Position numbers and translations under genes: made by a program
Notes under the pieces: generated by a model
The model's database searches: none
What the model was told of the DNA's origin: nothing
The model's input: only the letters and a program-made list of their open reading frames with translations
Source: a virus
Direction: 5' to 3' (one strand)
IMG/VR virus record: IMGVR_UViG_3300033998_000217
Span: 1-21,645 of that record
Length of the DNA stretch: 21,645 nucleotides
Shown here: piece by piece, positions 5,163 through 12,001 of the stretch
How the letters are laid out: each line of letters starts with the position of its first letter
Position numbering within the stretch: position 1 is the stretch's first letter

Positions 5163-6608
5163 ATGGAAATAGCTTCGCTCCAAATTGAGAATTTTCAAGC
5201 CCATAAATCCACAACAATTCGCCCTGGCCCGGGTGGCCAGTTAACCGTCATAACCGGCCCCTCGGACAGCGGCAAAACCGCCATTATCAGAGCCTTACGC
5301 TGGGTGTACTTCAACACACCGCAGGGTACGGACTTCATTCGGGTAGGGGCCAGGGAAGCCACCGTCGTCCTCACTTTGGTAGACGGTACCAGGATTATCC
5401 GCGACCGTTCCAGGGGCAGCAAAAATGCTTATGAGATTATCCTCCCTAACGGCGAAAAACAGTCCTTCGCAGGTTTTGGCGTCAATGTACCCCTGGAGAT
5501 CCAACAGCTTACCGGCGTTATGCCGGTCCAGATCGGCGACCTGGAGTTAAACCTTAACCTGGCCGAGCAGCTGGACGGCCCATTTCTGGGCAAGTCTATC
5601 TCCGCCGGGGCCAGGGCGAAAGTTTTAGGTAAGCTCGCCGGCACCGAAGAAGTAGACTATGCTGCAAAGCAACTGGCTACCGACCTGCACCGCCGCGGCC
5701 AGGACGAAAAGCGGCTGGCGGCAGAGATTGCCGGGCTGGAGGAAAAAATCCGGGAGTTCGACTACTTACCGAACATGAAGGCTAGGATTGAGGCAACCGA
5801 GGCCCTGGTAAGCCGGGCCAAGGCCACCGCGGAACTGCGGGATAAGCTGGCCGGATACCAGGAAAGATTGTACCAGTGTGAGGATGCTATCTCTCAGGCC
5901 AGAATGATTATCTGGCGCTGGCGGGGCCTGGAGGAAGCGGAAAACATCCTGTCCGGGGCTGAAATGACTGCGGCCAGGACGGATATCCTGTGCCGACTGG
6001 CATTCGGGCTGTCGGCAGCAGAAAACGGCATAGCTTCCAGCCAGGGTATCCTGCAAAAGTGGGCCGGTCTGGAAAAAGCAGAAGCGGCCATGGCCAAAGC
6101 CAGCGAGGCAGCCGCCAGAAAAGATGTTTTGCTGCGACTGGCAAGCCGGTGGGCCGTAGCAACAGAACGCATACTGGCCGACCAGAATGCCCTGCAACGC
6201 TGGTCCGGGCTAGACGAAGGCGCGGCGGCTGCTCTCCGGGCGGCGGAATTATATGAACGGTATACGCAACTTGGTAGTTTAAGGCAAAAGCTAATAACTG
6301 TTGCCAAAGAAATAGCCAGAGCGGTATTGGTCCTGGAGGGTTGGAAAAACATTGATGCAGCTACGTCTTGTATAGAAGCGGCGGAAACAGGGTTAACTTG
6401 CCGCAAGCAGATTATTTCCCTGGCCGCCAAGCTGGACTGTATCAATAAGGATATCGAAACAGCCCGACAGCAGGCCGTATTACATGAAAACCGTGTTGCC
6501 GAATTAGAAGGGGCTTATTTCGACGCCCTGCTGGCGGCAGGCCGCTGCCCGACCTGCGGCCAGGAAATCACCAACCAACAAATCGCTATTTTAAAGGAGG
6601 CTGTATAA
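5163..6608 (+). CDS. sbcC: Rad50/SbcC-like ATPase N-lobe with zinc hook (split subunit)
   Basis: A 481-residue protein equal to the front half of Rad50/SbcC. It has the N-terminal ATP-binding lobe (1-140) with Walker A GPSDSGKT (32-39) and a Q-loop region near 113-137, a long helical arm (about 160-455) and a zinc-hook motif CPTC (462-465), after which the protein ends within 16 residues. The signature motif, Walker B and H-loop are missing; they lie two genes downstream on a separate polypeptide. The arm is built of 47-residue tandem repeats. Start: ATG with AAGGAG 10 bases upstream; the open frame extends back to 4986 but that part overlaps the preceding gene. Together with the downstream parts it should form the ATP-driven clamp of an Mre11-Rad50-type DNA-end processing complex. 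Being a true split rather than a recent frameshift is supported by separate RBSs and intact termini. Confidence 0.9.
   Translation: MEIASLQIENFQAHKSTTIRPGPGGQLTVITGPSDSGKTAIIRALRWVYFNTPQGTDFIRVGAREATVVLTLVDGTRIIRDRSRGSKNAYEIILPNGEKQSFAGFGVNVPLEIQQLTGVMPVQIGDLELNLNLAEQLDGPFLGKSISAGARAKVLGKLAGTEEVDYAAKQLATDLHRRGQDEKRLAAEIAGLEEKIREFDYLPNMKARIEATEALVSRAKATAELRDKLAGYQERLYQCEDAISQARMIIWRWRGLEEAENILSGAEMTAARTDILCRLAFGLSAAENGIASSQGILQKWAGLEKAEAAMAKASEAAARKDVLLRLASRWAVATERILADQNALQRWSGLDEGAAAALRAAELYERYTQLGSLRQKLITVAKEIARAVLVLEGWKNIDAATSCIEAAETGLTCRKQIISLAAKLDCINKDIETARQQAVLHENRVAELEGAYFDALLAAGRCPTCGQEITNQQIAILKEAV
5703..6407 (+). repeat. Five tandem 47-codon repeats in the Rad50-like arm
   Basis: Residues 181-227, 228-274, 275-321, 322-368 and 369-415 align in register without gaps. 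Ile16 of the unit is in every copy, and Trp26 in copies 2-5 (Trp253, 300, 347, 394, exactly 47 apart). WxGL(E/D) marks copies 2-4, and copies 1 and 2 share the pattern SxAxxTAxxxD at the end. A sixth, partial unit starts at residue 416. The DNA is diverged, so the repeats are old. Confidence 0.9.
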
Positions 6609-6611
6609 ACA

Positions 6612-6845
6612 ATGACCGATATCGCCGCAAGGCTTAACAACCTTAAAGCCCAAATCGAAAAAGGGAAAGCCGAAAGAGCTAAAGCGGAGGCCAATCTGGA
6701 AACTTACACCAAACAGAAGGAAGAGATCATGGCAGAGCTGGCCGCGTTAGGCGTGGCCCCGGAAAAACTGGATGAGGAGATCGCCCGGCTGGAGGCTGAG
6801 ATTGAGAGTAACCTAGCCAAAGCGGAAGAACTGCTAAGGGGGTAG
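6612..6845 (+). CDS. 77-residue coiled-coil protein between the Rad50-like halves
   Basis: Almost entirely heptad-like helix: LNNLKAQIEKGKAERAKAEA, a short break at ALGVAPEKL (about 45-53) and EEIARLEAEIESNLAKAEEL. SD AAAGGAGG overlaps the end of the N-lobe gene; the stop is 5 bases before the C-lobe gene. There is no CxxC. It may supply part of the returning coil of the split Rad50 arm, or be an independent adaptor. Coiled coil is seen; partnership is inferred from its place. Confidence 0.8.
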   Translation: MTDIAARLNNLKAQIEKGKAERAKAEANLETYTKQKEEIMAELAALGVAPEKLDEEIARLEAEIESNLAKAEELLRG

Positions 6846-6850
6846 GCGGC

Positions 6851-7513
6851 ATGATTTCTGCCCCGGAAAACCGCCTCCCAAAAATTGAAACTGCCCTGGC
6901 GGCCCTGCGGTCCGACTATGACCGGGCCGCCGGGCAACTGGCCTACCTGGAACGCCACAAGGCTGAGAAGTTGGCCGAACTGGAGAAGGCCCAGGAAGAC
7001 ATACGGGTCTGGCAACTGGTGCAGGCCCTCTTTGCGAAGGTGTCCGAGTACGCCAGGGAGCAGTTGCGACAGAAAATTGAAGCGACCGTCACTGCTGCCC
7101 TCCAGGCCATATTCGAGGATGACGGTCTGGAATTTAAGGTGGTGCTGCGCCAAGAACGCGGCCAGGCCGCGGCCGACTGGGAGGTAGTCAGCAAATACGG
7201 GGAGTTCGTTGTCGCCGGCGATCCGGAAAACAGCCGGGGCGGCGGGGTAAGCGATGTGGTGAGCTTGGCGCTACGTCTGGCCCTACTGGAACTGGCCAGG
7301 CCGAAGCCGGGCGGTCCGGTACTGCTGGATGAGGTAGGGAAGCACGTGTCCGCTAATTATGCCCCAAACGTGGCGACCTTCTTGAAAGAATATGCCCGGA
7401 GGACGGGGCGGCAGGTAATTTTGATCACGCACCAGGCGGCGCTGGCCGAGGTAGCCGACGTAAGCTACCGCGTAAGCCAGCAGAACGGCATAAGCGAGGT
7501 GACCCGGGCATGA
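6851..7513 (+). CDS. sbcC: Rad50/SbcC-like ATPase C-lobe (split subunit)
   Basis: A 220-residue protein equal to the back half of Rad50/SbcC. Residues about 10-85 are helical coil. The C-lobe follows with the ABC signature region SRGGGVSDVVSLALRLAL (128-145, in place of LSGGE), Walker B VLLDE (157-161) and H-loop His194 in ILITHQ. There is no Walker A and no zinc hook, so it cannot be an ATPase alone and must pair with the N-lobe protein. Its coil is far shorter than the roughly 290-residue arm of the N-lobe. The stop overlaps the start of the Mre11/SbcD-like gene (ATGA), indicating coupled synthesis of complex partners. The family (SMC/Rad50 head) is clear. Confidence 0.88.
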   Translation: MISAPENRLPKIETALAALRSDYDRAAGQLAYLERHKAEKLAELEKAQEDIRVWQLVQALFAKVSEYAREQLRQKIEATVTAALQAIFEDDGLEFKVVLRQERGQAAADWEVVSKYGEFVVAGDPENSRGGGVSDVVSLALRLALLELARPKPGGPVLLDEVGKHVSANYAPNVATFLKEYARRTGRQVILITHQAALAEVADVSYRVSQQNGISEVTRA

Positions 7514-8496
7514 AGTTCATCGTAACAGGCGACTGGCATTTCCGGGGGACTAATCCCCGGGCGCGGATGGATGATTTCCAGGAAGCCCTGACCCATAAGA
7601 TTTATGAAGTTTTTAACCTGGCCCAGGAACACGAAGCTGAAGCCATTGTCGTCCCGGGCGACGTATTCGACAGTCCGGGTACTGCCCTGGGTACTATCGC
7701 TGACCTTGCTTATCTCTTGCAGCAGGCTCCATGCAAAATATTGGCGGTGCACGGCAACCACGACATATGGGGAAGCAACCCAGGTAGCAAGTACCGGACC
7801 CCTTTCGGGCTATTAGCTAAATTGGAGCTACTTTGGGACTTGGAACAGGAACCTTACGAAACAGGGTGGGTTTCCCCGGATTTGCTTATAACTGGCCACG
7901 GCTATAACACCGAAACTGATACCGAATTGGGCATGGCCCAGTTTAGCCCGGCAGCCCTGCCAGAGGGATTTGAAGGCGTATCCATTCGCGTAGTCCATTC
8001 CATGTTAATGCAGAAACCACCGGGCTTTGATATGCGCCATACCCTGATCCGGGACGTAAGAACGACGGCCAAAGTCGTCATATCAGGCCATGAGCACCTG
8101 GGCTTTGGTATAAAGCGCAGGGAGGACGGGGTTCTCTTTATCAACCCCGGCGCCTTATGCCGGCTGAGCGCCAACCCGGCTGAAATGGAGCGCCAGGTCC
8201 AGGTGGCGGTCCTGGAAGTAGAAAACGGAGAAGCTGAAGCCTTCCTGGTACCTTTGAAATCCGCCCGGCCGGGTTATGAGGTCCTTTCCCGTGACCATCT
8301 GGAACAAGAAGCTGAGCGGGAAGAACGGATTAACCGCTTCCTGGGCCTCCTGGCCGCCGAAGGGGAGGCGAAGTTCCTGGAGATCCAGGAGATAGTTGAC
8401 GACATAGCCAGGCGGGAGGAACTGCCGGCAGCAGTAGTCAAGGAGGCCCTGGATCGCATTGGCCGGGCGAGGGAAGCTCTGAGCAAGGCGGGATGA
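7510..8496 (+). CDS. sbcD: SbcD/Mre11-like DNA nuclease
   Basis: A 328-residue calcineurin-like phosphoesterase with the Mre11/SbcD metal-binding motifs: GDWH (Asp8, His10), GDVFD (Asp51), GNHD (Asn83, His84, Asp85), His163 in VVHS and GHEH (His194, His196). It should bind two Mn ions and cut DNA ends as the nuclease partner of the split Rad50 ATPase just upstream, with which it overlaps by four bases. After the catalytic core (to about 215) come a strand-rich segment and a helical C-terminus (about 260-328), which may be the region that contacts the Rad50 coil. All catalytic residues are intact. Length is a little shorter than E. coli SbcD (about 400). Confidence 0.95.
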   Translation: MKFIVTGDWHFRGTNPRARMDDFQEALTHKIYEVFNLAQEHEAEAIVVPGDVFDSPGTALGTIADLAYLLQQAPCKILAVHGNHDIWGSNPGSKYRTPFGLLAKLELLWDLEQEPYETGWVSPDLLITGHGYNTETDTELGMAQFSPAALPEGFEGVSIRVVHSMLMQKPPGFDMRHTLIRDVRTTAKVVISGHEHLGFGIKRREDGVLFINPGALCRLSANPAEMERQVQVAVLEVENGEAEAFLVPLKSARPGYEVLSRDHLEQEAEREERINRFLGLLAAEGEAKFLEIQEIVDDIARREELPAAVVKEALDRIGRAREALSKAG

Positions 8497-9434
8497 GGAT
8501 GAGCGTAGCAGCTATAAACCAACAACAAGAAAAGCTAACCGCAAGAATTATTTATGTCCGGTTCCACAACCCGGCCAATGGCTACTGCGTTTTGAGTTTG
8601 GATGCGAGAACGATGGAGACTATTACCGCCGTGGGCTACATGCCATCCATCCGCATTGACGAAGAGTATGAGTTCACCGGAAGTTGGGTAATTCACCCCA
8701 AATTCGGCCGGCAGTTCCAATTCACCGAATACCAGATGATCATGCCTTCTTCTAAAGAGGGGCTAATCTCTTACCTGTGCAGCGTGGCTACCGGCATCGG
8801 CCCGGTCAAGGCCGGGCGCATCGTGGACACCCTGGGGGATGACTGCCTGGACAAAATCCAGGCCGACCCCGGCATCCTTCTCACCGTTCCCGGGATTAAG
8901 CCGGAACAGGCAGAAGAAATCTACAAAGCTCTAGCCGAAAACCGTGTCCTGGCTGAATTAACAGCGCTTATCTGCGGGCAGGGGATTACTCCAAGATTGG
9001 CCACAAAAATATACCAACATTACGGCGTTGACAGCCTGAAGGTAGTCAAGGAGAACCCCTACGTCCTGGCGGACGAGATGTTTGGCGTGGGCTTTAAGAC
9101 AGCCGACAAAATTGCCCGGGCAGTGGGGATCCCGGAAGATAGTCCCTACCGGCTTGAAGCGGCGGTAAAGTGGCTGCTTAACGAAGCGGGGAACGACGGC
9201 CACTGCTACCTGCGGCCCTCTGAGATTTTAGCCAGGCTGCCGGAAGCCCTGGGGACGAGGGTAGAGGTAACCCCGGTGGCGGAAGCGGTGAAGGCGCTGC
9301 AGGAAAAGGGGCAGGTTGTACGGGAGGGCGACTGCATTTACTATGCCGGCATGTACGAGGCGGAAAAGGAGTTTGCCGGCAGGGTGAGGGGGATGGCGGA
9401 AAGACTATCTGGAAGCGAGGCGGCGCAGGAATGA
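8493..9434 (+). CDS. recD2: RecD2 helicase, N-terminal half (split gene)
   Basis: A 313-residue protein equal to the DNA-binding front of RecD2. It has an OB-like region about 15-82 with the typical VGYMPS...GSWVIHPKFGRQFQF pattern, a helix-hairpin-helix block about 97-145 (GIGPVKAGRIVDTLG, VPGIKPEQAEEI), a second one about 160-212 (GVGFKTADKIARAVGI) and a winged-helix-like segment to about 300 ending CIYYAGMYEAEKEFAGRV. The protein stops where RecD2 normally enters helicase motif I; the motor domain is encoded two genes later. The start ATG overlaps the nuclease stop, and its stop overlaps the LysM-3D start (ATGA). It presumably binds DNA and works with the separate motor. Confidence 0.92.
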   Translation: MRMSVAAINQQQEKLTARIIYVRFHNPANGYCVLSLDARTMETITAVGYMPSIRIDEEYEFTGSWVIHPKFGRQFQFTEYQMIMPSSKEGLISYLCSVATGIGPVKAGRIVDTLGDDCLDKIQADPGILLTVPGIKPEQAEEIYKALAENRVLAELTALICGQGITPRLATKIYQHYGVDSLKVVKENPYVLADEMFGVGFKTADKIARAVGIPEDSPYRLEAAVKWLLNEAGNDGHCYLRPSEILARLPEALGTRVEVTPVAEAVKALQEKGQVVREGDCIYYAGMYEAEKEFAGRVRGMAERLSGSEAAQE

Positions 9435-10135
9435 AACACCGTAGTCGGTTTCTATTTGTGACGATTATCGTGGTGGCTTTGGTAGCAATCTGCAATTACC
9501 CGGCTGCGGGCAGGCTGGAGATAGAAGAAAAGGAACCGCAAAGATATTCGCTTTATGTAATCCAGCCCGGAGATACTTTGCGGGATATTGCCGGCAGAGT
9601 ATTGCCGAAGCTGGACAACCAGAAAGCTTTAAAGGAACTGGAAGATCTCAACGGCCTGGAACCCGGACAGAAGCTCAATCTGGGGGATATCATCATTATC
9701 CCAGATCCGAACGGTGAATTGAGCGAACCTGTGGGACCAGTATATTCTTCCCCGCAAGCGGCCGAGGAGGCCAATAAGGCATTAGAAAAGGCTATGCAGG
9801 AAGCCGCCCGGATGAAGAGGTATCAGTTTGAAACCTCCCGCGGGATAAAAAGCAGGGAACTGATCCTGGAGATAACTGCCTACAGCAAAGACGACCCGGG
9901 CATGGACGGCGGGGGCATCATGTTTACCGGGTTACCGGTGGACCGCGGCGCCCTGGCGGTAGACCCGCGAGTTATTCCCCTGGGTTCGGTGGTCTGGATC
10001 CCGGAAGTGGGGTATACAGTGGCTCTCGACGTGGGCGGGGCGATAAAAGGGTATAAGGCCGACCTGTATATCCCGGACAAGAAGAAGGCCTTAGAGTGGG
10101 GCCGAAAAATGGTAAGAGTTAGAGTGTTGGAGTAA
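9431..10135 (+). CDS. Membrane-anchored or secreted LysM-3D cell-wall protein
   Basis: A 234-residue protein with an N-terminal hydrophobic segment (7-21, FLFVTIIVVALVAI) acting as signal peptide or anchor. A LysM peptidoglycan-binding domain follows (about 41-91, YVIQPGDTLRDIA...GQKLNLGDIIIIP), then a helical linker (107-135), then a 3D domain (about 145-232) with the three conserved aspartates Asp178, Asp200 and Asp211 (AVDPR, LDVGG, KADLY). 3D domains occur in lytic transglycosylase-like and spore or growth-related wall enzymes of Bacillota. It is oddly placed, inside a split recD2 and starting on its stop codon. It could remodel wall, or act in entry or superinfection exclusion; the role here is unknown. 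Confidence 0.9.
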   Translation: MKHRSRFLFVTIIVVALVAICNYPAAGRLEIEEKEPQRYSLYVIQPGDTLRDIAGRVLPKLDNQKALKELEDLNGLEPGQKLNLGDIIIIPDPNGELSEPVGPVYSSPQAAEEANKALEKAMQEAARMKRYQFETSRGIKSRELILEITAYSKDDPGMDGGGIMFTGLPVDRGALAVDPRVIPLGSVVWIPEVGYTVALDVGGAIKGYKADLYIPDKKKALEWGRKMVRVRVLE

Positions 10136-10744: not shown

Positions 10745-12001
10745 GTGGACTTTTCCGGATTGATTGCAGCCACTGAAAGCAACCTGGGTATTACCTACGC
10801 CGATGCTCAGCGCGAGGCTATATTAAAGGCCTTAACCTACAATCTCAGCATTGTTACAGGTGGTCCCGGTACGGGTAAAACAACCGTTACCCGGGGGATC
10901 CTGGCCGCCTACAAGCAGCTTCACCCGGATCATTATATTTACCTTGCCAGCCCTACGGGCCGGGCCGCTAAAAGGATGGCGGAGGTGACGGGGCACGATG
11001 CGAAAACCATTCACCGTCTGTTGCACTATCAACCCCAACACAATTGCTTCGAGTTCAATGAGCAGAACCCCCTGCCTGGGCCGGGGCTGCTGATATGCGA
11101 TGAGTTTTCAATGTGCGATATCCTGCTGGCCCGGGACTTGTTCCGGGCCATCCCCAGCAACCTGAAAGTAGTGTTAATCGGCGACGTGGATCAGCTCCCC
11201 TCTGTGGGACCGGGAGCCGTTTTAAGAGATCTTATCGCGTCGAGCGTAGTACCTACCACCCGGTTATCCCTCGTCTACCGCCAGGGCGAGGGCTCCGGGA
11301 TCCCTATTCTGGCTGATGCGGTCCGCCAGGGCAGACTACCGCCCGATTGGATGCGTCTCCCGGATGTGGAGGTTATCCCTGTGGATGACCGGCAGCTAAT
11401 ACCCAACCTCGTAAAGGAAAAAGCCCTGGAAGCCGTAAAAAGCTACGGCCTCATGGGTGTCCTTGTGCTGGCGCCGATGCGCCGGGGGATTGACGGGGTA
11501 AGCAATTTAAATCAGGTGGTCCGGGAAGCATTGAACCCGGACGGGGAAGATGTCCCAGAAATCCAGCTGAGCAGCGGCAAATTCAGGGTAAACGATAAGG
11601 TTATGGTAATCAAAAACAATTACACCTTGGGGGTCTTTAACGGCGACGTGGGGCAGGTAACAGAAATACAAACCGAAAGCCCCAGGGGAGTCTATGTGGA
11701 TATCCAGGGTAACGATGATGAAGTCTTTTTCAACGATGAGGACGATACCGCCGGCCTTATTACCCTGGCCTACGCCAGCACAGTCCACAAGGCCCAGGGG
11801 AGTGAAGCGCCGCAGGTCATTATGGTGCTGACCCGGGGGCACTACATGATGCTCCAGCGCAACCTCTTTTATACCGGCATCACCCGGGCCAAGAAGAAGC
11901 TGACCATTATCTGCCAACCGGACGCCGTGGAGATGGCCGTAAGGAACAACAAGATCGCCGCCAGGAACAGCCGGCTAAAAGAGCTGCTGGCTGCGGGTTA
12001 A
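10745..12001 (+). CDS. recD2: RecD2 helicase, motor half (split gene)
   Basis: A 418-residue SF1B helicase motor: motif I GGPGTGKTT (39-47, Lys45), Ia ASPTGRAAKRM, II LLICDEFSM, III LIGDVDQLPSVGPGAVL, IV LSLVYRQ, V YASTVHKAQGSEAPQVI and VI LFYTGITRAKKKL. It begins at ITYADAQREAI, the Q-motif-like entry that follows the N-terminal domain in intact RecD2. GTG start, SD AGGGGG about 9 bases upstream. With the N-terminal part (313 residues) the total is 731, close to a normal single-chain RecD2, so nothing is lost and the division is at the domain border. It should unwind DNA 5' to 3' with its separated partner. Confidence 0.95.
   Translation: MDFSGLIAATESNLGITYADAQREAILKALTYNLSIVTGGPGTGKTTVTRGILAAYKQLHPDHYIYLASPTGRAAKRMAEVTGHDAKTIHRLLHYQPQHNCFEFNEQNPLPGPGLLICDEFSMCDILLARDLFRAIPSNLKVVLIGDVDQLPSVGPGAVLRDLIASSVVPTTRLSLVYRQGEGSGIPILADAVRQGRLPPDWMRLPDVEVIPVDDRQLIPNLVKEKALEAVKSYGLMGVLVLAPMRRGIDGVSNLNQVVREALNPDGEDVPEIQLSSGKFRVNDKVMVIKNNYTLGVFNGDVGQVTEIQTESPRGVYVDIQGNDDEVFFNDEDDTAGLITLAYASTVHKAQGSEAPQVIMVLTRGHYMMLQRNLFYTGITRAKKKLTIICQPDAVEMAVRNNKIAARNSRLKELLAAG

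Follow-up and report, generated by a model that had tools for sequence, protein, structure and literature searches.

The closest described systems, E. coli SbcCD, archaeal Mre11-Rad50 and T4 gp46-gp47, are like the phage locus reported here in having an ABC head built of an N-lobe and a C-lobe, a CxxC hook, and an adjoining SbcD/Mre11; the hook of T4 gp46 is CPTC, as in our N-lobe protein. SbcC, Rad50 and T4 gp46 (560 aa) are each one chain with arms on either side of the hook and a signature of LSGGE or SEGE, whereas in the phage family there are three chains, one of which ends in the hook, the arms differ greatly in length, and the signature is GGG. That the Rad50 chain runs outward to the hook and then returns is regarded as basic to DNA tethering. 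The two lobes were crystallised as separate chains of one head in the P. furiosus Rad50 structures 1f2t, 1ii8, and 3qkr; these are laboratory constructs without the hook, whereas in the phages the lobes are split permanently and by nature.

Genes in pieces are described in T4-like phages, including nrdA of Aeh1, gp43A/B of phage 25, and the T4 topoisomerase (PMC2988022), and in the first two cases divided phage enzyme chains reassemble, as is proposed here. One clade of the split Rad50 family has an endonuclease-like gene in the gap. The T4-like genes in pieces are limited to particular phages, whereas the Rad50 split is family-wide and old, with one lineage apparently re-fused. The described Mre11/Rad50 fusions (PMC3175470) have SbcD joined to Rad50-like sequence, as do some of our loci. 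No description of a naturally split Rad50 or SbcC was found in the openly accessible literature searched.

Layout of the locus

The window, meaning the whole stretch of DNA analysed, is the 21,645 bases of IMG/VR virus record IMGVR_UViG_3300033998_000217. Four consecutive plus-strand genes encode an N-lobe protein, a small protein (S), a C-lobe protein, and an SbcD-like nuclease (Table 1). The N-lobe protein consists of a Rad50-like N-terminal ATPase half, a long helical arm, and a C-terminal CxxC hook that stands 16 residues ahead of the stop. The C-lobe protein is the ATPase half with signature, Walker B, D-loop region, and H-loop, and the Walker A pattern GxxxxGK[ST] was not found in it. 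The first-pass annotation had placed the genes, Walker A, and the two hook cysteines correctly, and had proposed that the pieces have their own ribosome-binding sites and that an SbcD partner follows with a 4-base overlap. Both proposals held: Shine-Dalgarno-like purine runs are read in the window upstream of all four starts, and the nuclease begins with an ATG at 7510, inside the last bases of the C-lobe gene. It had also described one cut, beside the hook. A cut does follow the hook, and a second lies between S and the C-lobe; the system is three pieces at least, plus SbcD.

Each piece matched its own PHROG family (16465, 18563, and 15167) over most of its length. These families are listed as unrelated (exonuclease, unknown, and ATPase, respectively) and are now linked. 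Pfam, PHROGs, and NCBIfam agreed in placing Rad50/SMC N-terminal sequence in the N-lobe and C-terminal sequence in the C-lobe. The N-lobe scored below the curated NCBIfam Rad50 cut-off (41.7 vs 1000 bits), a full-length cut-off that a split protein could hardly reach. The nuclease scored above the Pfam metallophosphoesterase cut-off and below the curated NCBIfam sbcD cut-off (29.3 vs 77.65 bits), and metallophosphoesterase motif patterns were seen in 46-49 of 49 SbcD-like proteins. Neighbouring genes encode RecD2, a UvrD-like helicase, Prim-Pol, and RuvC. Both lobes had weak matches to LmuB and mads_3, as would be expected if this were an SMC system for defence or plasmid interference, of the Lamassu or Wadjet kind, and not recombination machinery. 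However, those weak scores are confined to the ATPase and coil regions, the partner is an SbcD-like nuclease, and the locus lies within a replication/recombination block, which leaves a defence function highly improbable.

Table 1. Coordinates of features in the window and, where a locus number is given, in related loci.
Feature	Position	Strand	Evidence
N-lobe protein, 481 aa, ATG start	5163..6608	+	PF13476 E 1e-11; phrog_16465 E 8e-75; AF2
Walker A GPSDSGKT, N-lobe residues 32-39	5256..5279	+	present in 51/51 N-lobes
N-arm, ~287 residues, ~47-residue units	5685..6545	+	autocorrelation peaks 47, 94; quantised lengths; helix breaks
CPTC hook, Cys462 and Cys465	6546..6557	+	CxxC in last 35 residues of 49/51 N-lobes; modelled hairpin
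S, 77-aa predicted helical hairpin, putative third piece	6612..6845	+	phrog_18563 E 6e-10; AF2 hairpin in relative
C-lobe protein, 220 aa	6851..7513	+	phrog_15167 E 3e-57; PDB matches
Variant signature RGGGVSD, replacing LSGGE	7235..7255	+	Ser position Gly in 58/60, Ala in 2/60 C-lobes
Walker B PVLLDE, C-lobe Asp160/Glu161	7316..7333	+	Asp 60/60, Glu 59/60
H-loop histidine, C-lobe His194	7430..7432	+	invariant in 13-sequence alignment
SbcD/Mre11-like nuclease, 328 aa	7510..8496	+	Metallophos_2 E 5e-13; motifs DWH, GDVFD, GNHD, GHEH; PDB SbcD matches
HNH/AP2-like gene between N-lobe and S	L002:3584-4156
HNH/AP2-like gene between N-lobe and S	L017:5056-5595
HNH/AP2-like gene between N-lobe and S	L034:4808-5317
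SbcD-N chain, 769 aa	L094:3672-5981
S	L094:5974-6273
C-lobe	L094:6998-7708
SbcD-N-C armless chain	L138:2652-4754	-
SbcD-N-C armless chain	L139:1764-3818	+
SbcD-N-C armless chain	L140:2083-4170	-

Recurrence of the split

We scanned viral and genome contigs with the C-lobe as query; a pattern search of viral contigs for the N-lobe gave one locus. About 105 loci were obtained, from which 60 C-lobe representatives at ≤90% identity were kept, and the same cut was seen in these 60 non-redundant phage or prophage loci. Among the first ~105 loci fetched, no ORF carried both an N-head and a C-lobe. Walker A, constant in the N-lobes, was present in 0 of 58 C-lobes, and a CxxC near the chain end was lacking in just two N-lobes, L055, whose frame is truncated, and L096, an SbcD-N chain of greater length. 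The gene order N, S, C, SbcD recurs, for example in Bacillus phage vB_BboS-125, which has an AP2-domain gene after the N-lobe and one further gene before SbcD; that SbcD-like gene (L002:5424-6404, NC_048735.1 ~22423-23403) is unannotated in the record. A second order, N, SbcD, S-like, C, goes with N-arms of 134-276 residues in the short-arm forms (L008, L036, L037, L103, and L107-L116).

The lobe genes are not always adjacent. They lie 40 to 108 kb apart in two cultured phages, on opposite strands in one; Tunturi_5 has its C-lobe at 19 kb (+) and its N-lobe at 128 kb (-), and Magritte has its lobes at 0.3 and 93.8 kb. The N-lobe was located elsewhere in 6 of 9 records with non-adjacent lobes (these two phages and four more). 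A C-lobe with no N-lobe anywhere in the record was seen in G003 (102 kb) and in two fragments that are short or lie at an edge, which speaks against the pairing of the lobes. Of 398 Bacillota genomes, 65 had the C family and 67 the N family, and every one of the 65 had both. The feature had been presented as that of a single phage; instead the family is broad, occurring in about 16% of this Bacillota sample, and the split is ancient and stable. A phrog_15167 search of 14 control genomes gave no match in any. Five of 6 hosts retain an ordinary one-chain SbcC of 1051-1228 aa.

These distributions bear on whether the pieces are really separate. The N-lobe and S of the window share a frame, with just TAA and one codon between them, as might be left by a sequencing or assembly frameshift or by decay of a single SbcC gene. 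The first-pass annotation had itself named a frameshift as the thing to exclude, and the recurrence of the cut in 60 loci, the distances of up to 108 kb and opposite strands, the intact motifs in each piece, and the separate ribosome-binding sites leave this explanation virtually no chance. One chain could alternatively be restored by frameshifting, by read-through of the stop, or by an intron or intein, and the window, Moorella, and some other loci do have N and S in a common frame. The N-S and S-C frame relations vary among loci, however, other genes intervene between the pieces in many phages, genes may lie far apart or on opposite strands, and no Rfam RNA, introns included, was found in the window, L002, or L017. 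We regard such recoding as extremely improbable, and the pieces as separate products.

How the gene came to be cut is a different matter. In the Bacillus-type clade, and there only, an HNH/AP2-like gene stands exactly between the N-lobe and S (Table 1), as it would if a homing endonuclease inserted after the hook had divided the gene, in the way described for Aeh1 nrdA and the T4 topoisomerase (PMC2988022). Against such an origin, the HNH/AP2 gene is absent from the clade of the window and from genomes with the order SbcD, N, S, C; the endonuclease may have invaded a pre-existing gap, and its insertion would leave the cut that separates S from C unexplained. We consider this origin doubtful, if worth keeping in view. 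Cytosine methylase genes also occupy the gap between the N-lobe and S in L048 and L091.

The modelled head and natural fusions

An AF2 chimera was made from the relative L053, in which N, S, and C share a frame, by reading through its stops as a modelling device; it comprised N, S, 209 out-of-frame linker residues, and C. The pLDDT was mostly 87-96 for the N-head up to residue ~120 and mostly 82-93 for the C-head, with two dips (70-78 near residues 121-150; 76 around 910); in the junk linker it was very low. Caution is called for by the pTM of 0.44 and by AF2's good knowledge of SMC heads. Both lobes superposed at once on P. furiosus Rad50 (4ncj_A, 293/311 residues, 3.3 A, Z 25.7), on Smc2 (6qj1, 377 residues, 3.2 A, Z 29.9), and on E. 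coli SbcC (7yzo_D, 337 residues, 5.0 A, Z 24.6). By sequence, the C-lobe matched best in the PDB to P. furiosus Rad50 constructs, in which the C-terminal part is a chain of its own. The model thus supports the folding of the relative's N-lobe and C-lobe into one Rad50/SMC head, in line with the lobe interface that had been suggested as a check. When the N-lobe of the window was modelled alone, confidence was lower at the P-loop (the sequence and alignment differ from those of the chimera), which fits, weakly, with a dependence on the C-lobe.

Fused homologues, for which a search had also been advised, do exist. SbcD and the N-lobe are in one chain with a separate C-lobe in L079, L094, and L096. 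The tail of L096 past the hook was considered as a fused S and rejected, as it scored no better than shuffles or other arms. L094 is probably Bacillus phage 0305phi8-36, with which the size of its 769-aa SbcD-N chain and a structure match to A7KV18 fit. In the 2011 description of the SbcD-Rad50 fusion protein of that phage, one P-loop NTPase segment was not observed (PMC3175470). The separate C-lobe of L094, approximately 1 kb downstream of the SbcD-N chain, seems to explain the lobe reported missing.

Complete fusions of SbcD, N, and C were found in 3 of the 65 Bacillota genomes with the C family, as single chains of 686-702 aa that lack the arms, the hook, and S. Their C-lobes are nested inside the split family in the tree, beside a locus ordered SbcD, N, S, C (support 99/97). 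Because of this nesting the chains look like a later re-fusion, and one lineage therefore appears to have rejoined SbcD with both lobes, as one chain that has no arms. No joined form bearing arms was found in the loci surveyed, where the armless chains are the sole joined ones. A natural fusion of this kind indicates that the two lobes make one ATPase. The lobes could instead belong to two different ATPases, each with another partner, as the non-canonical signature and the unlinked genes of some phages might imply; however, the N and C families co-occur in 65 of 65 genomes, single SbcD-N-C chains exist, the model has a joint head, and the neighbourhood is constant, so that we find two ATPases highly improbable.

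Taken together, these data make it very probable that the locus encodes a phage Mre11-Rad50-type complex with an ATPase subunit that is permanently divided over separate chains, which form one head. Obligate hetero-oligomerisation of the pieces, as the first-pass annotation had suggested, is strongly implied. Its naming of the protein as a split Rad50/SbcC stands as to a Rad50-like ATPase over separate chains and falls short as to the signature. Because the signature and single-chain features fail, we class the system as a relative of Rad50/SbcC that is divergent and permanently split, and not as canonical SbcC.

Signature, arms, and proposed mechanism

The serine of the signature is important for ATP-driven engagement in Rad50. 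The C-lobe had been credited with the signature region, Walker B, and H-loop and no Walker A, all of which stands except that the signature is [RN]GGGxxD, not LSGGE; by comparison, T4 gp46 has SEGE and the host SbcC proteins have LSGGE. The family-wide loss of the serine (Table 1) counts against the single-head Mre11-Rad50-type complex that we favour.

The N-arm, from head to hook, is 134-338 residues long across loci, and its lengths form two ladders with steps of ~47 (240/287/334 and 134/179/228/275). Self-similarity within the arm peaks at 47 and 94, and the modelled helix breaks are ~47 apart, falling at 301, 344-349, and 395 in the N-lobe of the window. The C-arm, in contrast, is steady at about 45-57 residues in most loci, and S is about 77-100 residues in most; longer values of either reflect unresolved start codons. 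With an N-arm of 134-338 and a C-arm of ~45-57 residues, the usual equal antiparallel arm pair is therefore not encoded, contrary to the earlier picture of two halves joined through the hook. The inequality of the arms likewise counts against the favoured complex. The CxxC is conserved, yet at a chain end.

S was modelled as a hairpin (AF2 of L053) and sits between N and C in the arm-bearing clade ordered N, S, C, SbcD and in survey genomes. The short-arm forms examined have a hairpin-like ORF of 78-94 aa directly upstream of the C-lobe, which had no significant sequence match to S and is like it in position and shape alone. Since S goes with forms that have arms, and the armless fusions were found to lack it, it is probably an arm partner.

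The N-lobe and C-lobe would associate into one ABC head, as the model and natural fusions suggest. From family knowledge and the gene neighbourhood, two such heads with two SbcD-like nucleases may bind ATP and process DNA ends, presumably in the recombination or replication of the phage. Two complexes could be paired through zinc by the CxxC at the N-chain tip, as in Rad50, with rod length set by the N-arm alone through added 47-residue units and with S, encoded between the lobe genes, lying along the arm. We tentatively go a step further, to a proposal that may well be wrong: a different arm plan, with a rod of the N-chain only running in 47-residue modules to the hook, S as an arm subunit in its own right, the C-arm no more than a short piece at the head, and a GGG ATP switch without serine. 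If it is true, rod length would evolve independently of the C-lobe. With its cut chain, its unequal quantised arms, and one branch armless and hookless yet with SbcD, the family is a natural experiment on the roles of arms, hook, and signature motif. It suggests that this ancient enzyme may work, at least in viruses, with its halves not joined in one chain.

The neighbouring RecD2 is likewise split in the window, into an OB/HHH part and a helicase core (8493-9434 and 10745-12001); the genes between them encode a LysM-3D protein (9431-10135) and a metallopeptidase of phage type (10169-10723). The RecD2 halves adjoin in the Moorella locus (L010), with an 8-base overlap, and RecD2 is one chain in L011, L012, L013, L039, L057, L061, L063, and L065.
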